Shown piece after piece: positions 377 through 36,780 of a DNA stretch of 64,000 nucleotides. Below the pieces are notes generated by a model. The model was not told where the DNA came from and made no database searches. It worked only from the letters and a program-made list of their open reading frames with translations. This DNA is from Magnetospirillum sulfuroxidans (GTDB lineage Bacteria > Pseudomonadota > Alphaproteobacteria > Rhodospirillales > Magnetospirillaceae). Numbering within the stretch: position 1 is the stretch's first letter; each line of letters begins with the position of its first letter. The stretch lies in NCBI RefSeq assembly GCF_018224925.1, contig NZ_JAGTUF010000002.1:1-64000 (forward strand), written 5' to 3'. Both the position numbers and the translations under genes were made by a program.

Positions 377-1420
377 ATGACCTGGTTTCTGATCCAAGAC
401 ATCAAACGCGCCACCCTGGCCGCCGCCGCCGCCGCCGCCATCGCCGCCGCCATTGCGTTGGCCATTCCCGGCGCCCGCGCCGCCGAACCCAAGACCTTGC
501 TCAATGTTTCCTATGATCCAACGCGTGAGCTGTACCAGGATTTCAACGCCGCCTTCATCGCCCATTGGAAGGCCAAGACCGGCGAAGAGCTGAAGATCAA
601 TCAGTCCCATGGCGGTTCGGGCAAGCAAGCGCGCGGCGTCATCGACGGACTGGAAGCCGATATCGTCACCTTGGCCCTCGCCTATGACATCGACGCCATC
701 GCCGACAAGGCCAAGCTGCTGGCCCCCGATTGGCAAAAGCGTTTGTCCTATAATTCCTCGCCCTATACCTCGACCATCGTCTTCCTGGTCCGACAGGGCA
801 ACCCCAAGGGAATCAAGGATTGGGACGACCTGATCAAGCCCGGCGTGCAGGTCATCACCCCCAACCCCAAGACCTCGGGGGGAGCGCGTTGGAACCATCT
901 GGCCGCCTGGGGCTATGCGCTCAACAAATGGAACAACGACCCGGCCAAGGCCGAGGAATTCGTCGCCGCCCTTTATAAAAACGTCCCGGTGCTGGATTCC
1001 GGCGCTCGTGGCGCCACCAACACTTTCGCCCAAAGAGGATTGGGCGACGTGTTGCTGGCCTGGGAGAACGAAGCCATCCTCGCCAATGACGAATTCGGCG
1101 GCGGCTTCGAGATCGTCGCCCCCAGCCTGTCCATTCTGGCCGAACCGCCGGTCGCCGTCGTCGATAAGATCGTCGACCGCCGCGGCACCCGCACCCAGGC
1201 CGAAGCCTATCTGAACTTTCTTTATACCGAGCAGGGCCAGGAAATCGCCGCCAAGCATCATTACCGGCCGCGCAACCAAGATATCGCCGCCAAATATGCG
1301 CAGAATTTCCCCAAGGTGCGGCTTTTTACCATCGACGACGTCTTTGGCGGCTGGGCCAAGGCGCAAAAGGAACATTTCGCCGATGGCGGTATCTTTGACC
1401 GCATCGTGGCGAAGAAGTAA
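377..1420 (+). CDS. sbp: Sulfate/thiosulfate ABC transporter, periplasmic binding protein
   Basis: The 347-residue protein has an Ala-rich signal peptide (about residues 1-35, ending ARAA) and then the sulfate-binding family core: [17 protein letters not shown], the [12 protein letters not shown] segment, and [11 protein letters not shown]. It captures sulfate or thiosulfate in the periplasm and delivers it to CysT/CysW. ATG 377 is preferred over an upstream TTG at 353 because AAGGAG sits 6 bases before it. The signal peptide is encoded by a run of repeated GCC codons. The stop overlaps the next start (TAATG), consistent with one operon sbp-cysT-cysW-cysA. Sbp and CysP cannot be told apart from sequence alone here. 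Confidence 0.93.
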
Positions 1421-2244
1421 TGGCCGCCAGCAAACCTAAGGTCATCCCAGGGTTCTCCGTAACCCTGGGCGTGACCCTCGCCTATCTGTCGCTGGTGGTC
1501 CTGATCCCGCTGGCGGCACTGATCGCCAAAGCCGCCGGCATGTCGGCGACGCAATGGCTGGCCACCCTTGGCGATTCCCGCGTCCTCGCCTCGTTCCGGC
1601 TTTCTTTTGGCGGTGCGGCCATTGCGGCCAGCGTCAATGGAGTGTTCGGTCTGCTGGTCGCCTGGGTCTTGGTACGCTATCGCTTTCCCGGCCGCAAAAT
1701 TATCGATGCCTTGATCGACCTGCCTTTCGCCTTGCCCACCGCCGTCGCTGGCATCGCCCTGACCGCGCTTTACGCCCCCAACGGCTGGATTGGACATTTG
1801 TTGCCGTTCAAGGTGGCCTTTACCCCCTTGGGGGCGATCATTGCCATGATCTTCATCGGCCTGCCCTTTGTCGTGCGGACCATTGAACCGGTGTTGCAGG
1901 ATGTGGACAGGGAATTGGAAGAAGCCGCCACCAGCCTGGGAGCCTCGAGGTCGCAGACCTTTGTCCGCGTCATCTTACCGGCCATCGCCCCGGCGTTGCT
2001 GACCGGGATCTCGCTGGCCTTCGCCCGCGCTGTCGGCGAGTACGGGTCAATCATTTTCATTGCCGGCAACCTGCCGGGATTCTCTGAGATCGCCCCTCTT
2101 TTGATCGTCACCAAGCTCGAGCAATACGATTACGTCGGCGCCACCGCCATTGCCTGCCTGATGCTGGCGGCATCGTTCGCCCTGCTGCTGGCCATCAATT
2201 TGTTGCAGAAGTGGAACCGCCAGCGCCGAGGAGCCGCCTCATGA
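1420..2244 (+). CDS. cysT: Sulfate/thiosulfate ABC transporter permease CysT (CysU)
   Basis: The 274-residue inner-membrane protein has about six hydrophobic segments and the binding-protein-dependent permease loop EEAATSLGASRSQTF, which docks on the ATPase CysA. The text VLQDVDRELEEAATSLGA and the AVGEYGSIIFIAGN segment are typical of CysT/CysU. Its ATG overlaps the sbp stop by one base and its TGA overlaps the cysW ATG (ATGA), so translation of the operon is probably coupled. The length is normal for the family. Confidence 0.93.
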   Translation: MAASKPKVIPGFSVTLGVTLAYLSLVVLIPLAALIAKAAGMSATQWLATLGDSRVLASFRLSFGGAAIAASVNGVFGLLVAWVLVRYRFPGRKIIDALIDLPFALPTAVAGIALTALYAPNGWIGHLLPFKVAFTPLGAIIAMIFIGLPFVVRTIEPVLQDVDRELEEAATSLGASRSQTFVRVILPAIAPALLTGISLAFARAVGEYGSIIFIAGNLPGFSEIAPLLIVTKLEQYDYVGATAIACLMLAASFALLLAINLLQKWNRQRRGAAS

Positions 2245-3071
2245 ACCGTGACCCTCTGCTCATCCGTTGGCTGCTGATCGCCCTCGCCATCGGCTTTTTG
2301 CTCCTGTTCCTGGCCTTACCCTTGGCCGCGGTGCTGACCGAGGCTTTGCGCAAGGGCGTCTTGGCGTATTGGCACTCTCTCGGGGGGGACGACACCTTGG
2401 CCTCGATTCGCCTGACCCTGATCGTCGCCGCCATCGCCGTGCCGCTGAACATGGTGTTCGGGCTGACGGCAAGCTGGGCCATCGCCAAGTTCGATTTTGC
2501 CGGCAAGGCTTGGCTGGTGTCGCTCATCGACCTGCCCTTCTCGGTGTCGCCGGTCATCTCGGGGCTGATCTATGTCTTGTTGTTCGGCGCCCAAGGGATA
2601 TTGGGGCCATGGCTGATCGCCCATGATCTCAAGATCATCTTCGCCATCCCCGGCATCGTTCTTGCCACCCTCTTCGTCACCTTCCCCTTCGTCGCCCGCG
2701 AGTTGATCCCACTGATGGAAGAACAGGGCCGCGACGAGGAAGAAGCGGCCTTGACCCTGGGGGCCGGCGGCTTCCGCACCTTTTGGGCCGTCACCCTGCC
2801 CAACGTCAAATGGGGATTGCTGTACGGCGTCTTGCTGTGCAACGCCCGCGCCATGGGTGAATTCGGCGCCGTCTCTGTGGTGTCGGGGCACATTCGCGGC
2901 CTGACCAACACCATGCCCCTGCATGTGGAGATTCTCTACAATGAATATGATTTCGTCGGCGCCTTCGCCGTTGCCTCGCTTCTCGCGCTTTTGGCCCTGG
3001 TCACCCTGGTCGCCAAAACAGCCCTTGCCTGGTGGCATCGGGCCGAGCTTGGCGCCACGGCCGGACACTAA
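2241..3071 (+). CDS. cysW: Sulfate/thiosulfate ABC transporter permease CysW
   Basis: The 276-residue second membrane subunit of the sulfate importer forms the channel with CysT. It has hydrophobic segments throughout, the permease loop [15 protein letters not shown], and the family text [23 protein letters not shown] 2241 overlaps the cysT stop and has GAGGAG just upstream; an upstream GTG at 2211 would lie inside cysT and is less likely. The gene ends four bases before the cysA start. Confidence 0.93.
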
Positions 3072-3075
3072 AGCC

Positions 3076-4107
3076 ATGATCGAAGTCTCGCACCTGAGTA
3101 AAACCTTTGGCGCTTTTCGCGCTTTGAATGACGTCTCCCTGCGCATCCCCGACGGAAAGTTGGTGGCATTGCTGGGACCATCGGGATCGGGCAAGACGAC
3201 GCTGTTGCGTATTCTGGCCGGACTTGATCATGCCGATAGCGGTCATGTGCACCTCAATGGCCTGAACGCGGCCAATTTGCAAACCCGCGACCGCCGCGTC
3301 GGCTTTGTCTTTCAGCATTACGCCCTGTTCCGCCACATGAGCGTCGCCGAAAACGTCGCCTTTGGCCTTAAGGTCCGCAAGGGCGCCAACAAATTGACCA
3401 AGGCCGAAATCGCTGACCGCGTCGCCCGCCTGCTTGATCTGGTGCATTTGTCCGGTCTGGCCCCACGCTATCCGTCGCAGCTCTCTGGGGGGCAACGTCA
3501 ACGCGTCGCCCTGGCCCGCGCCCTGGCGGTCGAGCCGCGCCTGCTGTTGCTGGATGAGCCCTTTGGCGCCCTGGACGCCCAGGTCCGCAAGGATTTGCGG
3601 CGCTGGCTGCGGCAATTGCACGATGACATGGGGCTGACGTCGGTTTTCGTTACCCACGACCAGGAAGAAGCTTTGGAACTGGCCGATGAAGTGGTGGTGA
3701 TGAGCAAGGGCCGCATCGAACAGATCGGCAGCCCCGCCGACATCTACGACAACCCGGCCAGTCCTTTCGTCTTTCAGTTCCTCGGCAACGCCAACCGCCT
3801 GGACGCCACCATCCGCGATGGCATCGCCCACGTGGCCCATTGGCGCACCGCCGCCACCGGCCTTGCCGACGGCAAGGGCATCGCCTTCATCCGTCCCCAT
3901 GAAATCGACATCGATCCCCACGGCCGTGACGCCACCATCCGCCATCACGTGGTGCTTGGCCCCACCGTGCGCCTGGACTTGCGCCTTGACGGCGACGTCC
4001 ACGCCGAAGCGGTGATCGACCGCGATTCCCACGCCCGTCTGCGGCTGGAACCGGGACAACAGGTCGGACTGACAGCCCGGCGCATCGTCGTTTTCGCCCA
4101 GGATTAA
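3076..4107 (+). CDS. cysA: Sulfate/thiosulfate ABC transporter ATP-binding protein CysA
   Basis: The 343-residue ATPase has Walker [10 protein letters not shown] at residues 34-42, Q-loop FVFQHYALF, signature [15 protein letters not shown], Walker [13 protein letters not shown] and the switch-region [16 protein letters not shown]. The C-terminal third is a TOBE-like regulatory domain (FIRPHEIDI). It powers uptake through CysT/CysW. ATG 3076 begins with [12 protein letters not shown], the usual N-terminus; the longer open frame upstream overlaps cysW and is not needed. It is the last gene of the operon and is followed by a strong terminator. Confidence 0.95.
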
Positions 4108-21514: not shown

Positions 21515-21565
21515 ATGGTGCCCAGGGGCGGAATCGAACCACCGACACTGCGATTTTCAGTCGCA
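21515..21565 (-). repeat. attL: 51-bp duplicate of the tRNA-Phe 3' half
   Basis: The segment is identical base for base to 36704-36754. It covers CCA, the acceptor 3' strand, the T arm, the variable loop and the anticodon arm up to the 5' strand of the anticodon stem, so it is not a functional tRNA. The sequence diverges directly after TCGCA. Confidence 0.93.
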
Positions 21566-21677
21566 GAAAACAGAACAAAACAGGAATAAAATAGCAGAAC
21601 ATATCGCAACGTCGTTGCCTTACAATCTTTTGGTATCATTGACATTTTTATCCGCCGTGTGAACATGCGTGAACTTG

Positions 21678-21722
21678 AGGTAACGGGGCAAAACGCCTCA
21701 ATCTGTTACCTCAGCGTTACCT
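21678..21722. repeat. Arm-type integrase sites, left end of element B
   Basis: GTTACCT occurs inverted at 21678-21684 and direct at 21705-21711 and 21716-21722, the last as GTTACCTGGGA. The same 11-mer and a second GTTACCT occur at the right end (36617-36635). Position between att and the integrase gene fits arm sites that would also repress int. Confidence 0.55.
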
Positions 21723-21739
21723 GGGAGCGATCACGCGAT

Positions 21740-23014
21740 ATGACAAAAAGGCTCACCGATGCGAGTGTTTCCCGCTTCACCATTCCCGCAACGGGACAGG
21801 AAGAGCATTGGGATGCGGCCATCTCCGGTTTCGGCATCCGCATCACCGCCAAGGGCCGCCGCTCGTGGGTGCTGATGAAGCGGCTCAAGATCGACGGCAA
21901 ACCCCTGGTGCGCTTCACCTTGGGGGAATACCCCGCCATGTCGCTGGCCGACGCCCGCAAGAAAGCCGGGCAATACATCGACATCATCGGGGCCGGGGGC
22001 GATCCCCGTGAGGAAGAGGAAAAGCAGATCGCCGCCACCGAGGCCCGCCGCCGCAACACCTTCGAGGGGGTGGCGGGGGAATTCATCGAAAAATACGGCA
22101 AGCGACAAATCCGCTCGTGGGCGCGGGTGGAACGCTCGCTTGAGCTGCACGTCATGCCGCATTGGCGCAACCGCCCCATCGATTCCATCACCCGGCGCGA
22201 CGTCAACGACCTGTTGGACAAACTGGTGGATGGCGGGCTTTCCGTCCAGGCAAACCGGGTCTTGGCCTATGTCCGCAAGCTCTTCAACTGGTGCATTGAG
22301 CGCGGCATCCTGGAAACCTCCCCGGCCTTCCAGGTCAAGCCGCCCGCCGCCGAACAGCCCCGCGAACGGGATTTGAAGGCCGACGAGATCGCTGCCCTAT
22401 GGCCCGCCTTCGCCAGCCTGGGCGAGCCTTTCGGCCCCTATATGCAAATCCTGTTGATCCTGGGGCAGCGCCGCAACGAGGTGGCAAGCATGCGCTGGCA
22501 GGATATCGACCTCGAACGCGGGGAATGGACGTTGCCCCGCGAGCTGACCAAGGCCAAGCGCACCCACATCATCCCCTTGCCGCAAATGGCGGTGGACATC
22601 CTCAAGACCATTGAGCCGGTGAGCTATCGCCCCTCGGCGGGCAGGCCGTCCATAGCCTCGGATTTCGTCTTCACCACCACCGGGGAAACGCCCATTTCCG
22701 GCTTTGGCCGGGTCAAGGCCCGGATCGACAAGGCGGCGGCGGAAGCCCGGAGACAGGAAGAGCGCGAAACGGTCGCCCCCTGGTGCCTACACGATTTGCG
22801 CCGCACGGCGGCAACCCGCATGGCCGAGCTCGGGGTGCCGGTCGAACATATCGGGCGGGTTCTCAACCACGCCCCACGCGGCATTACCGCCACGGTGTAC
22901 GATAAGCACACCTACATTCCGGAAAAGCGCCGCGCCCTGGACGTGTGGGCCGACTATCTGAAAAGCATTGTTGCCCCCGAGGACGGGGGCAACGTGGTGA
23001 AGCTGCGTGGGTAA
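21740..23014 (+). CDS. Tyrosine integrase of element B (P4-type, DUF4102 arm domain)
   Basis: The 424-residue protein has the N-terminal arm-binding domain (ISGFGIRITAKGRRSWVL, ADARKKAGQY), a SAM-like core-binding part, and a catalytic domain with Arg in LILGQRRNEVASMRW, the H-x-x-R box HDLRRTAATRM, VEHIGRVLNHAP and Tyr in TATVYDKHTY. Such integrases insert genomic islands into tRNA 3' ends. ATG 21740 is chosen because MTKRLTDASVSRF is the standard N-terminus; a GTG at 21659 would place the arm sites inside the coding region. It is transcribed away from attL. Confidence 0.92.
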   Translation: MTKRLTDASVSRFTIPATGQEEHWDAAISGFGIRITAKGRRSWVLMKRLKIDGKPLVRFTLGEYPAMSLADARKKAGQYIDIIGAGGDPREEEEKQIAATEARRRNTFEGVAGEFIEKYGKRQIRSWARVERSLELHVMPHWRNRPIDSITRRDVNDLLDKLVDGGLSVQANRVLAYVRKLFNWCIERGILETSPAFQVKPPAAEQPRERDLKADEIAALWPAFASLGEPFGPYMQILLILGQRRNEVASMRWQDIDLERGEWTLPRELTKAKRTHIIPLPQMAVDILKTIEPVSYRPSAGRPSIASDFVFTTTGETPISGFGRVKARIDKAAAEARRQEERETVAPWCLHDLRRTAATRMAELGVPVEHIGRVLNHAPRGITATVYDKHTYIPEKRRALDVWADYLKSIVAPEDGGNVVKLRG

Positions 23015-23050: not shown

Positions 23051-23461
23051 TCAACCGCCGACCATGTCGAGGAACTCGCGGGCCGTCACCACCAAGGCGT
23101 TGCCATAGGTCGGGGCGGTGAAATGAGCGGTGTTGCCGGTGACGATGGCATCGGCGTTGCCCACATGGGCCGCGATCACATAGACGAGATCGTCGGCATC
23201 CCCAATTTCTTCGGTCTGTGGCGGATTGGCCGGGATGGTCAAATAATCCGCCCGCAACGCCACTTCCTCGATCAGGGCATGCATACGCATGCGGATGCCC
23301 TCGGAGAATTTCCGATACCCGGCGACCCGCCGGTATTCGTCCAAAATCTCTTCGCTGATCAGGATGGTGTGATTGTCCCGCGCCTCGGCGATGGCACGCA
23401 AACAAACACCGCCGGAAATGGCGGCGGAAACGAGGATGTTGCAGTCGATCAGAACGCGCAT
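23051..23461 (-). CDS. PIN-domain toxin (putative toxin-antitoxin nuclease)
   Basis: The 136-residue protein begins MRVLIDCNILVSAAISGG, with the first catalytic Asp, and carries further acidic residues in EEILDEY and GDADDLVYVIAAH and a final VTGNTAHF region. This is the PIN nuclease fold of the family often named putative TA toxin, PIN family; such toxins cleave RNA. It follows the antitoxin gene by 11 bases on the same strand. The TGA stop lies where PIN proteins normally end, so TGA seems to act as a stop here. Confidence 0.85.
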   Translation of the reverse strand: MRVLIDCNILVSAAISGGVCLRAIAEARDNHTILISEEILDEYRRVAGYRKFSEGIRMRMHALIEEVALRADYLTIPANPPQTEEIGDADDLVYVIAAHVGNADAIVTGNTAHFTAPTYGNALVVTAREFLDMVGG

Positions 23462-23472
23462 GGGGCGGTGGA

Positions 23473-23754
23473 TTACTTGGCAGGCTTGCGGCGCTCTTGC
23501 CGCACTTCATCCACGGCCTGGACGGCATAGGCCATCACCTCTTCCTCGCTCATCCCCGCAAATTGCGGATCGGTCGGGTATTGGTCGAGGATCGCCGACA
23601 GACGGGCCAATTCGGCTTCCCGCACTTCCTTGGCGTCCACGTATTCCACTTGCACGCGCACGCGCCGACCGGGACGAAAACCGGCCTTGACGACGGCATC
23701 GCGGATGCCTTCGACGCTGGTTTCAAGGGTGGCCTGTTGGGTGTTCATGCTCAT
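23473..23754 (-). CDS. Antitoxin-like partner of the PIN toxin
   Basis: The 93-residue protein has a short N-terminal DNA-binding-like part (GFRPGRRVRVQVEYV) and an acidic helical C-terminus (FAGMSEEEVMAYAVQAVDEV) that could wrap the toxin. It resembles the small antitoxins encoded upstream of PIN genes in gene order and size; no strict motif was matched. Probably it also represses the pair. It lies directly beside the edge of the foreign block starting near 23755. Confidence 0.7.
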   Translation of the reverse strand: MSMNTQQATLETSVEGIRDAVVKAGFRPGRRVRVQVEYVDAKEVREAELARLSAILDQYPTDPQFAGMSEEEVMAYAVQAVDEVRQERRKPAK

Positions 23755-23937
23755 GGTTGGGTACCGGTTAGCTATTAACGAATCATATTATATGAATTGA
23801 CGGCCACTTTACAAATTTTCAGGCGGGGAAAGTGGAATGCGACCACCACAATGTGGCAGGTAAGAACGCAGATATAAAAACTTGCAATAAATGCACAAAG
23901 CCATAAAATACGGTCATTTATTTGATAAACAATACAT

Positions 23938-25989
23938 ATGACGCAACGCTCAATTAAGAAGCAGTCACATTGATTTACACTCATCGAGCTCATCGTCACC
24001 ATCACTATACTTGTCATTCTAGGCACCATTGCTTTTGTATCTCTTGGTGGGTATGCGGGATCAGCACGAGACAGCTCCCGTGTCTCCGATCTTGCTTTAA
24101 TTTCCAAGGGACTTGATCTGTATTACATAAAGCAGGGTTCATTTCCGACGCCATCGGGGGCGGTATCCGTCACCTATTCCGGTGCTGCGCTCTGGCAGCA
24201 GGGGAATGCTGGGGAAGCGGTCATTACCGCCCTTTGAGCCGCCGGGGCGAAACTCTCGACCAAGCCGACCGATCCGCTTTTGAAGACGGAATACGGATAC
24301 TCCCTCTCGACCGGTACGCCGGAATATGCCCTGCGAACCGATTACGAAGGAGATAATATCACCCGTCGCGCCACCCCTTGGGCAGACCGTGCGAACGCTG
24401 CCACCGGGAATCCGTCCCTCGCCTATATTCGCGGCACCTACAACGGGGTGGCGACAAAGACGAGTACGGGCGGAAAGGTGTATATTCTCGCCCTTCCGAG
24501 CATTTTCACTATCTCGGGGACGACGACAGTATCGGAGGCATCCGCTGCGTCCTTCCTCGTCTACGGAAAAAGTCTTTCCGGGGTCGCCTTTACTCCGAAG
24601 GTCGTTTTCTCTTCCGGTTCGCTCCCGAGCTCCGATGACGAACGGATTATCTTTGCCTCTGGAGTGATTGCATCCTATTCAGGAACAAGCTTCGCAACAA
24701 ACTCGGATATTCAAACTTTTATATCTGCTTATTCGAGCACCGGAGCTCTCGCAAATGTCGGAGGAAATTTTGTTCGGACGAGACTTGGCGGTGGCGCTTG
24801 AGCCGTCGCTACCAGCATAGGAACGGCGGTAGCTCCGAGCGATCCGGAGATAACGAAAGATATATACGAAGGGACGGGCTCTTCGAGTCCGGGCAAATTC
24901 ACCGACGTCAACGGGACGGTGTTTTTCGCGGCGACTGACGGGACGAATGGGACTGAGCTCTGGAAGTCCGACGGGACGGCGGTGGGGACGGTGATGGTGA
25001 AGGATATTAATCCAGGATCGAGCAGTTCGAGCCCCAACCACCTCACCAACGTCAACGGGACGCTGTATTTCTCAGCGACTGACGGAACGAATGGCACGGA
25101 GCTCTGGAAGTCCGACGGGACGGCGGTGGGGACCGTGATGGTGAAGGATATACGTACGGGGACTGTTGGTTCGGGCCCAACCTATCTCGTGAACATCAAT
25201 TGAACGTTGTATTTTTCGGCAAGTGGTGACACGGGCGGGACTGAGCTCTGGAAGTCGGATGGAACGGCGGTGGGGACGGTGATGGTGAAGGATATTTGTC
25301 CAGGATCATTGGGTTCGAACCCAACCTATCTCTTGAACATCAATGGAACGTTGTATTTCGCAGCAAGTGACGGGACGAATGGGCGTGAGCTCTGGAAGTC
25401 CGACGGGACGGCGGTGGGGACGGTGATGGTGAAGGATATATATGTGGGGGGTGGGAATGAATCGAGCCCAACCTATCTCGTGAACATCAATTGAACGTTG
25501 TATTTTTCGGCAACCGACGGGACGAATGGAATCGAGCTCTGGAAGTCGGATGGAACGGCGGTGGGGACGGTGATGGTGATGGATATACGTACGGGATCGA
25601 GCAGTTCGTCCCCAGTTTCTATCACCAACGTCAATGGGACGGTGTTTTTCGCGGCGACTGACGGGACGAATGGGACTGAGCTCTGGAAGTCCGACGGGAC
25701 GGCGGTGGGGACGGTGATGGTGATGGATATACGTACGGGATCGAGCAGTTCGAGCCCCAACTCCCTCACCAACGTCAACGGGACGGTGTTTTTCGCGGCT
25801 AATGACGGAACGAATGGGACTGAGCTCTGGAAGTCGGATGGAACGACGGTGGGGACAGTGATGGTGATGGATATTAATCCGGGAGTGGGCAATGGGTTCC
25901 CAAACTCCCTCACCAACGTCAACGGGACGCTGTATTTATCGGCGAATGACGGGACGAATGGTGCTGAGCTCTGGAAATACACCCCGTAG
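23938..25989 (+). CDS. Prepilin-like ELWxxDGT-repeat protein with five in-frame TGA codons (TGA = Gly)
   Basis: From ATG 23938 to TAG 25987 the frame is interrupted only by TGA, at codons beginning 23971, 24235, 24799, 25201 and 25492. With TGA as glycine it encodes 683 residues. The N-terminus is a type IV prepilin: a basic leader (MTQRSIKKQSH), Gly (TGA) at the peptidase site, then FTLIELIVTITILVILGTIA. A globular pilin part follows to about residue 300. Eight 48-residue ELWxxDGT repeats, each with ELWKSDGTAVGTVMVKDI-like text, cover about 24860-25989; two TGA codons stand where sister repeats read Asn-Gly (GGA or GGG). Under the standard code it would be a heap of fragments. No Shine-Dalgarno sequence is visible. 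It is probably a surface or pilus protein from a UGA-Gly lineage (Absconditabacteria or Gracilibacteria), by inference. Confidence 0.85.
24860..25989 (+). repeat. Eight tandem ~144-bp ELWxxDGT repeats
   Basis: The anchor GAGCTCTGG recurs at 24955, 25099, 25243, 25387, 25534, 25678, 25822 and 25966, spaced 144 bases except once 147. The units are nearly identical in DNA, which indicates recent amplification or gene conversion. All are in the prepilin frame. Confidence 0.9.
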
Positions 25990-26007
25990 CAACGCACACA
26001 TTGTCGG

Positions 26008-26048
26008 AACCAAAAGGAGCGGCTATATAGCCGCTCCTTTTGGTTTTT
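26008..26048 (+). terminator. Strong terminator after the prepilin/ELWxxDGT gene
   Basis: A perfect 18-bp stem (AACCAAAAGGAGCGGCTA with its complement, two-base loop) is followed by a T run; its A-rich left arm also makes it work on the minus strand. It lies between the prepilin gene and the converging serine recombinase. Confidence 0.92.
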
Positions 26049-26067
26049 AGGATCGTCTGGAGGATGT

Positions 26068-26733
26068 CTACAATCCGGTATATCGCAAAATAAGGCTCCG
26101 GACGCATTGTGCTTGCCAATACTTCCCCGTTCTCGTCCGTATACCCCGCTCATTGAACTCTCGTGCCATAGCCCGAAGCGAAAGCCCACCGGCTATCATC
26201 TCCTCTATGATCGGGTAGACCTTGGCCGCGAAATCATCCGCCGCCCGCATGTTTGCCCGTGCCGCCTCCCCGTTATCCAGGCGGGGATTACCAAGTTTGA
26301 CACCTCGCGCCTTGGCCTGGGCCATCGCCGCTTTTGTCCGCTCCGAGATCATGGCCCGCTCATGTTCGGCCACGGCGGCAAGAATGTGGATGGTCAGGCG
26401 GGATGCCTCCGGCATATCGACGGCGCGGAACTCCACCCGGCTTTCCATGAGGTTCGAGATAAAGGCGACGGATCGCGAAAGCCGGTCGAGCTTAGCGATC
26501 AGCAGCGTGGCCTTTTTCCGTCGGCATAGATCAAGCGCCTTTTGCAGTTCCGGACGATCCGCCCGTTTGCCGCTTTCCACTTCGAGCAACGCCCCGGCGA
26601 ACTCACCGCCGATCCGTTCGACGTACCGGAAAACCGCCTCGCGTTGCGCGTCCAGTCAAAGACCGGAGCGGCCCTGCCGATCCGTGGAAACGCGGTAATA
26701 GGCGACGAAAAGCGGAACGGGATGCGGTTTCAT
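26068..26733 (-). CDS. Serine recombinase (resolvase/invertase), one in-frame TGA at a conserved Gly
   Basis: From ATG 26733 the frame reads VAYYRVSTDRQGRSGL, then TGA (codon 26), then LDAQREAVFRYVERIGG and an uninterrupted rest to TAG. In this family the motif is normally SGLGLEAQ or similar, so the TGA replaces a conserved glycine. With it, the protein is 221 residues: catalytic domain with Ser16, arginine-rich active site (LIAKLDRLSRSVAFI), long E helix, and a C-terminal helix-turn-helix (GGLSLRAMAREFNERG). Without readthrough a protein could start only downstream (about 173 residues) and would lack the catalytic serine. A simple GGA-to-TGA nonsense mutation is the alternative to recoding. 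Confidence 0.75.
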
Positions 26734-26889
26734 GGGGGAAGTGTAAAAAGACAAAGGTCGCTTTGGACTTTGTACAGTCTATCCATCGCGACCGATTCGG
26801 CAAATCCGATTGGGATTTTCACATCGCCCAGCTTTCCCGCTCCGGTGTCGCCTGCTACCATTTCGCCCGCAACGGTATCGATTCGAGGG

Positions 26890-28929: not shown

Positions 28930-29310
28930 AAACCTCCATGCGACACGCCCAACATCTCAGGCGCGTTTTTTATGCCGATATACTATCTTTTGGGTGTGAC
29001 GATGGCAAGATTTGCGCGTGCTCGCGCACAGGCAGACGATATATTGTGGTGTCGGTTGTTCGTCCGCCGTCCAGCGGGCGGCGGCCCGACGAAGGCGCAG
29101 GCTTTCGGGCGGTTCCGGTTCGGCTGGGCGGAGTGAGCGAGGGGACGAGCGAACGACACACAGCCGAGAGGAAACGACGAAAACGGAGAATGAGGAGGGA
29201 ACCGAATTCCCATATTATAGCCAAGTACTTTGATTTACTGGAGATTTTTGACTTTTCGCCATTGGTGCATAAAATGGCTGAAATGCTGGGTCAAAGGATG
29301 GAGGCAAACC
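28930..29310. other. Intergenic region before the transfer ATPase (possible oriT)
   Basis: This 381-base stretch holds no convincing gene. It contains inverted repeats such as CCGCC-gtccagcg-GGCGG near 29070, AT-rich patches (ATGCCGATATACTATC at about 28972), and the promoter of the ATPase gene must lie here. Position next to mobility genes makes it a candidate origin of transfer, but no nic consensus was recognised. Confidence 0.3.
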
Positions 29311-31032
29311 TTGGTCGAAACCGTGTCCGACGCCCTGCAAGCCGCCCTTGCCCTCCATCTGGGCGAAGGGGCGGAAGACGCCCTTATGCTGGGGGAATTC
29401 CGCCTTGCCGGATCGCCCGCCTTCGGTCGCGACGTGGCCGACACCTTCGCCTTGGCGAACCGATTGCCGGGGAGGGAGGAGTTCCGCCGCCTGTTCGCCC
29501 AACGCGACCTGCCCAAGCCCGCCAAGCCGTCGCCCGAATACATCGAATCCGAGGCCCGCGCCATCGAGCGCGACCCGGCCAAGCTGCCCTATGCCATGGC
29601 GTTGATCGCCGACCGCCTGGGGCAGATTTACACCGCTAAACTTGCCGAGTATGAAAAGAAACGCCAAAGGCGCGACGCCCTCGAACAGAATCACGAAGAC
29701 ACTGACCTGGGCTATATACGTTTTCTGTGTGCGGAGGCTCCGCAGGCTCACGGCTTTTTTTTCGATCGCCTGTGGACGTTGCCCATAGCGGAAGACGACC
29801 GCAGGCGGCACACCTACATCACCGGCGGGGCCGGATCGGGCAAATCCGAAGCCATCAAGGCCATCATCTTTCACTATCTGACCCGCAACAAAGCCCCGGC
29901 CTTGGTGCTGATCGACCCGCACGGCGATCTGGCCGAACAGGTGGCCCATTGGCCGGAACTGGCGGACGGCCAGCGCCTTGTCTACATCGATCCGGCGCTG
30001 ATCCCCGGAACGTCCCCGGTGTTCAACCCGCTGGACATCCCCGACGACGAACGCAATCCCGACGACATCGCCATCATGGTCAAGCAGTTGATCGAGGTGT
30101 TCCCGGAACTGATCGAGGGGCTGGAATTCACCCCGCAAATGCGCACGCTGATCGGCGCGTGCCTGACCGTGCTGTTGCACAAGCCCGGCTCCACCCTGGC
30201 CGATTTGATGGATTTCATGGACGACGACCGCAACAAGCCGTGGCTGGATTTCGCCGACACGGTTCTGGCCGGTTCCCTGTTCCGCGACTTCTTCCGCCGC
30301 GAATTCAACGACAAGACCATGGACACCAGCAAGCGCGGCGTGCGCATGCGCCTGTACGAAGCCTTGCAGGGCAACCCGGCCTTTTACCGCATGATCGCCG
30401 GGCAAAGCACCTTCAACCTGGAAGAGCTGTTGCGCCGCCGCGCCGTGGTGATCTTCCGCCTGGGCCGGGGCGACATCGGTGAAACCACCAGCAACCTGAT
30501 CGGCAAGTTCATCATGGCCCGGCTCAAGGCGTTCGCCTTCAAGCAGGGCCGCACGCCCGAGGCCCAGCGCATCCCCGTGCATGTGTTCGTGGACGAGTGC
30601 CAGAACTACCTTTCCGAAAGCGTCGAAACCATCCTGAAGGAAGCGCGGAAATACGGGGTGCATTTGACCCTGGCGCAGCAGATTTTGGGCGACGGCATGA
30701 GCCAGGATTTGCTCAAGGCCATCTTGGGCAACACCGCCGTCAAGATCACCGGCAAGAACGCGCTTCATACCCTCAAGAAGATCGCCGAGGAAACCGGGGC
30801 CGATCTGGGCGAGTTGCAAAATCTGTCCATCGGGTATTTCCACATCAAGGCGGGAAGCCGCAAGGGCGTGGTGGTGCGCATGCCGTCGCATCGGGTCAAG
30901 GATAAAGGCGCGATCCGGCCCGAGGCGTGGCAGGCGCTGTGCGACAGCCAGGTCGCCCGCTATTACCGCGCCGTCACCATGCCGCGTGCGGCGTCTTCGC
31001 CGTCCGCCTATCGCCCCCTCGCTATCGATTAA
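29311..31032 (+). CDS. VirD4/TraD-like DNA-transfer ATPase (HerA/FtsK superfamily)
   Basis: The 573-residue protein has Walker A GGAGSGKS at residues 172-179, LVLIDPHGDLAEQVAHWPEL, a Walker B-type strand VHVFVDECQN at about 422-431, and a late HLTLAQQILGDGM sensor region, as in conjugative coupling proteins and related TraM-recognition ATPases. No membrane segment is obvious after the chosen start. TTG 29311 is preferred because GGAGG lies 6 bases before it; the open frame upstream to 29230 is Trp-rich and unlike protein. It is followed 9 bases later by the replication-relaxation gene. Confidence 0.85.
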   Translation: MVETVSDALQAALALHLGEGAEDALMLGEFRLAGSPAFGRDVADTFALANRLPGREEFRRLFAQRDLPKPAKPSPEYIESEARAIERDPAKLPYAMALIADRLGQIYTAKLAEYEKKRQRRDALEQNHEDTDLGYIRFLCAEAPQAHGFFFDRLWTLPIAEDDRRRHTYITGGAGSGKSEAIKAIIFHYLTRNKAPALVLIDPHGDLAEQVAHWPELADGQRLVYIDPALIPGTSPVFNPLDIPDDERNPDDIAIMVKQLIEVFPELIEGLEFTPQMRTLIGACLTVLLHKPGSTLADLMDFMDDDRNKPWLDFADTVLAGSLFRDFFRREFNDKTMDTSKRGVRMRLYEALQGNPAFYRMIAGQSTFNLEELLRRRAVVIFRLGRGDIGETTSNLIGKFIMARLKAFAFKQGRTPEAQRIPVHVFVDECQNYLSESVETILKEARKYGVHLTLAQQILGDGMSQDLLKAILGNTAVKITGKNALHTLKKIAEETGADLGELQNLSIGYFHIKAGSRKGVVVRMPSHRVKDKGAIRPEAWQALCDSQVARYYRAVTMPRAASSPSAYRPLAID

Positions 31033-36703: not shown

Positions 36704-36754
36704 ATGGTGCCCAGGGGCGGAATCGAACCACCGACACTGCGATTTTCAGTCGCA
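36704..36754 (-). repeat. attR: 51-bp repeat inside tRNA-Phe
   Basis: Identical to 21515-21565. Together they define element B; the intact tRNA gene is on this side. Confidence 0.93.
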
Positions 36755-36780
36755 TGCTCTACCAACTGAGCTACCTGGGC
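36705..36780 (-). tRNA. tRNA-Phe (anticodon GAA)
   Basis: A complete 76-base tRNA on the minus strand including encoded CCA. The acceptor GCCCAGG pairs with CCTGGGC, the anticodon GAA is at 36747-36745 in loop CTGAAAA, and the T loop is GGTTCGATTCC. It is the integration site of element B. Confidence 0.97.

Follow-up and report, generated by a model that had tools for sequence, protein, structure and literature searches.

The genome of the alphaproteobacterium Magnetospirillum sulfuroxidans carries, as cargo of a tRNA-Phe island, one prepilin-like gene that stays open only if TGA is read as a sense codon, and whose closest identified N-terminal relatives belong to bacteria in which UGA encodes glycine (genetic code 25). 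We consider it very probable that this gene was imported recently, that its source was a GC-rich code-25 lineage not yet sampled, and that it cannot be translated as a whole in its present host. The argument is built on direct observations of the frame, of the code used by its relatives, of release factor RF2 in the host, and of the island with its variable slot. Table 1 lists the features of interest within the window, i.e. the whole 64,000-nucleotide stretch of DNA analysed here (contig NZ_JAGTUF010000002.1 of assembly GCF_018224925.1, positions 1 to 64,000). Other genomes are designated by G numbers.

Table 1. Features of the tRNA-Phe island and its cargo, in window coordinates.
Feature	Position	Strand	Basis
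Island left boundary, 51-bp copy of tRNA-Phe end	21515..21565		
Tyrosine integrase	21659..23014	+	Phage_integrase, Arm-DNA-bind_3
PIN-domain toxin-like protein	23051..23461	-	PIN_3
93-aa frame beside PIN gene, putative antitoxin	23473..23754	-	position only
Segment inserted with respect to the G008 island	23840..26068		comparison with G008
Code-25 gene, prepilin-like part and ELWxxDGT repeats	23938..25989	+	frame, families, codon analysis
Perfect 38-bp palindrome, terminator-like	26008..26045		begins 19 bp past the gene's stop
Serine recombinase frame, TGA-interrupted at 26658-26656	26068..26733	-	Resolvase, Recombinase
Coupling-protein-like ATPase of island	29230..31032	+	TrwB_AAD_bind, T4SS-DNA_transf
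Island right boundary, 51-bp copy within tRNA-Phe 36705-36780	36704..36754		

The gene consists of a single frame of 683 codons (55% GC), running from an ATG at 23938 to a TAG at 25987-25989 without the need for any frameshift and with no TAA or TAG before that stop. Five TGA codons are found in phase, at codons 12, 100, 288, 422 and 519 (window positions 23971, 24235, 24799, 25201 and 25492). The frame, its five TGA codons and the lack of other stops or frameshifts had been described in a first-pass annotation of the sequence, and recomputing them gave the same result. When TGA is translated as glycine, the product starts with a prepilin-like region (codons 1 to about 300) and continues with eight ELWxxDGT repeats; it scores over the cut-offs of Pfam N_methyl and NCBIfam TIGR02532, which cover the class III signal and the hydrophobic stem, and of TIGR04534 (543 bits, eight stretches). 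Judged by signal and stem it is a type IV prepilin, with peptidase cleavage and assembly into a filament as predicted properties. TGA makes up 5 of its 91 glycine codons, the corresponding figures being 12.7% in G137 and 9.9% in G061, two of the code-25 genomes described below. Hairpins like the palindrome that follows the gene are present in donor-group genomes and once elsewhere in the window, and with densities per 10 kb of 1.08 in G137, 0.35 in G061 and 0.31 in the window they were discarded as a diagnostic mark of the donor.

The positions of the TGA codons were compared with 69 homologues, namely those among 85 distinct frames whose score reached 100 bits and whose alignment exceeded 170 positions. 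Codon 12 corresponds to the -1 site of prepilins, occupied by glycine in 59 homologues and by alanine in 9 (one gap); across the 85 homologous frames the -1 residue is encoded by TGA in 17 and by GGN in 52, 9 have alanine and the motif is absent in 7. Codons 422 and 519 occupy the second position of the N-G-x-[LV]-[YF] site, where the other six of the eight repeats have GGG or GGA. The first-pass annotation had recognised both the peptidase-site glycine and the glycine codons of the sister repeats, and it was correct in each case. Its broader view that all five TGA replace glycine does not hold for codons 100 and 288, neither of which falls in a conserved glycine column (glycine in 8 of 69 homologues, with one gap, and in 13 of 69, with 17 gaps), so that on a strict count three of the five (12, 422 and 519) stand at glycine sites. 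The five TGA codons had also been taken as independent. Their non-random nature was borne out, but the DNA around codons 422 and 519 is almost identical, revealing an internal duplication, and these two therefore count as one event that was copied, leaving about four independent events instead of five.

A random nonsense change has a probability of 0.10-0.145 of being a glycine-to-TGA change, and all changes would be of this kind by chance with a probability of 1e-5 to 6e-5 for five events, or 1e-4 to 4e-4 for four. These values bear on the possibility that a standard-code gene has decayed through five nonsense mutations, an idea that could find some backing in the fact that TGA should terminate translation in the host, where RF2 is present, and in the adjoining recombinase frame, which likewise has TGA in place of a glycine codon. 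The lack of TAA, TAG or frameshifts, the low chance values and the use of TGA as a normal glycine codon in the homologues make decay extremely improbable, in agreement with the annotation, which had judged it a poor explanation. Reading TGA as tryptophan (code 4) was set aside as well, since the relatives are code-25 genes and tryptophan is unfit for the prepilin -1 site.

Relatives of the prepilin half were sought in a collection of genome contigs, scanned with an alignment made of the window's own segment and two hand-typed guide rows. The 17 loci obtained were all in one freshwater bin, CAIVSN01 (Loclat_bin-20132; G061), with 53% GC and frequent in-frame TGA. This genome yielded 72 matches to the prepilin query (loci including L034-L080), in which the internal stops were all TGA with the exception of one TAG. 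In the class to which G061 belongs, which we take to be that called Gracilibacteria or JAEDAM01, matches at 0.001 were present in 290 of 353 genomes, many of them weak and at the level of the motif, with mostly three candidates scored. This naming is in keeping with PMC11393006. The closest match to the first 290 residues of the gene was in G137 (55% identity), followed by G136, G134, G133, G132 and G114, with TGA inside the frames.

Several lines of evidence indicate how these relatives read TGA. Treating it as sense increased the fraction of sequence lying within frames of at least 200 codons in 11 of 11 presumed code-25 genomes, measured on stretches of 9 to 305 kb per genome. This fraction rose from 0.37 to 0.76 in G137; in G327, which is outside the group, it hardly changed (0.79 to 0.80). 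A 79-nt tRNA with anticodon UCA was identified in G137, labelled SeC by ARAGORN, with acceptor and discriminator resembling those of tRNA-Gly. As a query it found matches in 6 of 10 genomes tested, which correspond to 6 of the 7 code-25 genomes among them (identical in G133 and G136, 99% in G134, 91% in G114 and G061), and none in G132, G327, the host or G008, a genome of the host's genus. RF2 was over the cut-off in 3 of 12 genomes tested, namely the host (523 bits), G008 and G327, and in none of the nine code-25 genomes, where only weaker matches, taken for RF1, were obtained. The closest relatives of the N-terminal half are thus from genomes with TGA-dense frames, in most cases a UCA tRNA, and no RF2 over the cut-off, while the closest protein to the repeat half comes from a standard-code genome.

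The phylogenetic position of the gene was consistent with this. In a first tree (70 rows) it was placed in a clade with G132, G133, G134, G136 and G137 with support of 0.979, the innermost fork having 0.0, and in a second, maximum likelihood tree (47 rows) it fell in a 15-row set (100/100) formed by the same genomes and one row from G061; here its end branch measured 1.62 and its own fork (92/79) was outside the well-supported ones. A third tree, built around the G798 gene discussed below, gave as the nearest fork of the window gene one shared with G135, at 0.278. From these trees the clade is secure, and the exact donor is not. With respect to codon choice, the per-codon log-likelihood of the gene was -1.216 with the usage of G061, -1.247 with G137, -1.315 with the rest of the island, -1.326 with G327, -1.330 with G136, -1.389 with the host, -1.666 with G128 and -1.809 with G105, a ranking in which a GC-rich code-25 background fits and a low-GC one (G136, G128, G105) does worse than the island. 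The origin in a code-25 lineage proposed by the annotation is therefore supported by the TGA-sense homologues of the N-terminal half, the UCA tRNA, the RF2 results and two of the trees. The donor would not be a known low-GC member of the group but a GC-rich, unsampled one, as suggested by the long branch and the best identity of 55%; the lack of a close donor, together with these two values and the weakness of the nearest forks, also counts against the import, as do the two TGA sites outside conserved glycine columns, the poorer codon fit of the low-GC code-25 genomes and the affinity of the repeat half to a protein of the host's genus.

The annotation had asked whether the best matches would lie in code-25 genomes, and this proved true for the N-terminal half and not for the repeats. 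The protein nearest to the latter is in G002, of the host's own genus (69% over 369 residues), compared with 34-46% for the code-25 and sister genomes in the class of G061. It is conceivable, though we are inclined to doubt it, that the repeat half derives from a standard-code ELWxxDGT gene, perhaps of the host's family, that a code-25 lineage had acquired by the time the gene was transferred back, a history compatible with the import. The similarity to G002 would favour such a return. Several points speak against it: the codons are unlike those of host-genus genes for leucine (CTC 14 and CTG 2, vs. CTC 1 and CTG 21), glycine (GGG 31 and GGC 6, vs. GGG 7 and GGC 39) and threonine (ACG 35 and ACC 11, vs. 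ACG 10 and ACC 39), ELWxxDGT repeats are close to a common consensus, and a gene with this architecture is present in code-25 genome G187, where prepilin and ELWxxDGT repeats share a single frame with TGA as 78 of 84 glycine codons. G061 itself has, at its relatively high GC content, a large family of modular pilins with varied heads. Four of eight paralogues scanned scored above threshold for some head family, the matches being to Fib_succ_major, Lcl_C and, in two cases, fibrinogen-type domains; among the other four there was one weaker head match and three had none.

The gene resides in an island of 15,240 bp between the two tRNA-Phe copies. By its tRNA-end direct repeats and its tyrosine integrase this is a tRNA-targeted integrative island, with predicted excision and transfer, and the coupling-protein-like ATPase is the only transfer-related gene seen in it. 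G008 has the same island, with 94.7% identity up to window position 23839 and 90% from 26143 on, over 5.8 kb, and harbors 4.05 kb of other genes between the matching flanks, which indicates that the window gene is located in a natural variable slot. The left edge of the insert is exact (23839/23840) and the right edge may be anywhere from the stop of the gene to 26143. The cargo of G008 (L032, 3748-7798) comprises frames of 774 and 234 amino acids that by eye look membrane-bound.

This comparison weighs on the possibility of an assembly chimaera or contamination, in which a code-25 fragment from the same sample would have been joined into the contig. The draft nature of the genome, in 60 contigs, leaves room for such an error, but two misjoins would be needed, both at the slot that in G008 adjoins the same genes and holds different cargo. 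The stated contamination is 0.37%, and a similar neighbourhood is present in G798. In addition, the only match to the gene in its own 4.13-Mb genome was the gene itself, and no second N_methyl prepilin motif was found in the assembly, which argues against a contaminant, since one with dozens of paralogues would likely have left some others. We thus regard an artefact of this sort as very unlikely.

To the right of the gene, the recombinase is a mosaic with respect to G008 (67-72% in 26143-26322, 82-85% in 26323-26442 and 95-98% in 26443-26742), so the insert may have brought along the terminal part of a related recombinase; the 5' half of the frame is of host type and lies outside the insert. 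At the position of its TGA, all 7 of the other loci compared, from relatives, encode glycine within an RSGLGLEAQ-type motif. This TGA was rejected as part of the import because G008 has the same TGA in near-identical, host-type DNA, and it may reflect a pseudogene, a leaky stop, or a coincidence beside a code-25 gene.

Since UGA is a stop codon in the host, translation from the ATG would end after 11 residues, and the imported gene would be a silent passenger. Function in the host through UGA read-through or recoding would be in line with the intact frame and with the fact that a second island keeps a comparable one. Against this, RF2 is present and five UGA would have to be read in series. 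The search for a host tRNA-Gly(UCA) called for in the annotation gave no match to the donor-type UCA tRNA, nor did any of the host tRNAs read (35 of 41 matches) have a UCA anticodon, the window contains tRNA-Ser and tRNA-Phe only, with no suppressor tRNA in the island, and the host has no other prepilin motif. A working pilin in this bacterium is hence hard to credit.

A viral carrier was considered and discarded. A first scan of viral contigs returned 18 matching stretches with no relative among them, and a second one 12 loci, of which only one was strong (L201, in IMGVR_UViG_3300024185_000918), and this looks like a piece of code-25 bacterial chromosome. By eye, L201 has TGA-rich genes resembling those for a sigma factor, a primase and a thymidylate kinase, together with a prepilin and several tail-collar-like genes in succession. 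In a plasmid collection, the window protein (P0001) matched 22 records, with the repeat part as the main aligned region in the best 20; a second query (P0002) matched 14, the best 10 of which aligned from residue 209 on only, and the search at the DNA level gave one short match.

Searching 55 genomes of the family at 1e-20, a threshold at which weaker cases may be missed, gave matches in 10: the genome of origin, eight with stop-free alignments wholly or largely within the repeat half, and G798, from another genus, which matched the prepilin half (residues 6-286, 38%, with two TGA in the aligned part). G798, with three TGA in its prepilin frame, seems to be a new second case from a second genus of the family. 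The frame is in the region 731-3954 of a 3954-bp contig (C131; L213), behind genes for a tyrosine integrase, 37% identical to that of the window, and a PIN protein with no significant likeness to the window one; between the PIN gene and the prepilin there is a frame in the position of an antitoxin and without Pfam match. By eye, the contig starts with the end of a chemotaxis-type gene and a piece similar to the end of a tRNA, where ARAGORN reported no tRNA. The prepilin frame has TGA at codons 39, 163 and 296 and no TAA or TAG, contains FG-GAP repeats, and stops at the end of the contig. It nests with frames from G131, G133, G135, G136 and G137 (support 0.937); glycine is found at codon 163 in 61 of 76 homologues and at codon 39 in 17 of 76. 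Its GC content is 58.8% and 16 of its 25 leucine codons are CTC, a preference also seen in the window gene. Given the short contig, with evidence coming from assembled sequence alone, this case is weaker than that of the window.

A wider search in 385 genomes of Alphaproteobacteria at 1e-8 produced three matches, the genome of origin and two weak ones (residues 3-79 and 7-78) without stops. Two cases in 55 genomes versus none in about 380 corresponds to a value of 0.016, a hint at most, given that queries and thresholds differed between both searches. The recurrence involves two genera, two distant integrases, unrelated toxins and two different prepilins, and the repeated neighbourhood is a reason to look further at whether such cargo is there by chance. 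One could speculate that it is no accident, and that islands of this family repeatedly take code-25 prepilin-adhesin genes into the integrase/PIN-toxin slot, but as a whole we hold this reading to be unlikely. Were this so, a code-25 epibiont and its host might exchange the elements, whose core could be read in both codes and whose cargo would make sense to the partner alone; alternatively, the adhesin gene of the partner may be kept for some use that does not require the full-length protein.

Returning to the import as the preferred explanation, the gene would have originated in a bacterium for which UGA means glycine. This donor would be GC-rich, unsampled and related to G132-G137 and G061, and would have many such paralogues whose heads differ. 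There the gene would have encoded a modular type IV pilin with a stem processed at the glycine of codon 12 and a repeat head that, by analogy with the modular pilins described in PMC8179133, probably mediated attachment to other cells. Uptake into a standard-code alphaproteobacterium would have taken place as cargo of the tRNA-Phe island and, the gene being intact, recently.

Code-25 bacteria are tiny, and some of them live on other bacteria. The case presented here ties an uncultured lineage of this group physically to a possible partner, and points to the existence of GC-rich members with dozens of prepilins, as in G061. UGA recoding has been speculated to isolate these bacteria, in that neighbours cannot gain genes from them (Campbell 2013, as told in PMC8080830), and phages have been argued to be able to cross between codes (PMC10746230). 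Our results indicate that bacterial genes do likewise and that the block falls on expression: bacterial DNA has passed the code barrier intact, apparently twice in one family, and the protein stays unreadable. In the open literature that we searched we recognised no report of a standard-code genome carrying a code-25 gene. Because gene finders set to the standard code would fragment such genes, more of them may have been overlooked, and whether recoding blocks transfer, or expression only, can now be asked directly.

Absconditabacteria and Gracilibacteria, in which code 25 is described (PMC6851277, PMC8080830 and PMC10746230), share with the present case UGA as glycine, and the code-25 systems are further characterized by loss of RF2, a tRNA(UCA) and type IV pilus genes; the difference is that here one such gene sits in a standard-code chromosome, and that its GC content is nearly twice the 28.87% given for the genome in PMC6851277. 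Alternatively coded phages and prophages of standard-code hosts, as covered by PMC10746230, are alike in bringing a foreign code into a standard-code cell, and unlike in that no phage genes were seen accompanying this gene, in an island devoid of suppressor tRNA. The combination of a prepilin stem with a bulky module is that of modular (bimodular) pilins such as PilB of Streptococcus sanguinis (PMC8179133), from which our protein, known from sequence alone, differs in having an array of ELWxxDGT repeats as its module and in being encoded by a gene unreadable in its present host. Finally, with eight repeats over the cut-off it resembles the ELWxxDGT repeat proteins (TIGR04534), apart from the prepilin stem to which its repeats are joined and the use of code 25.
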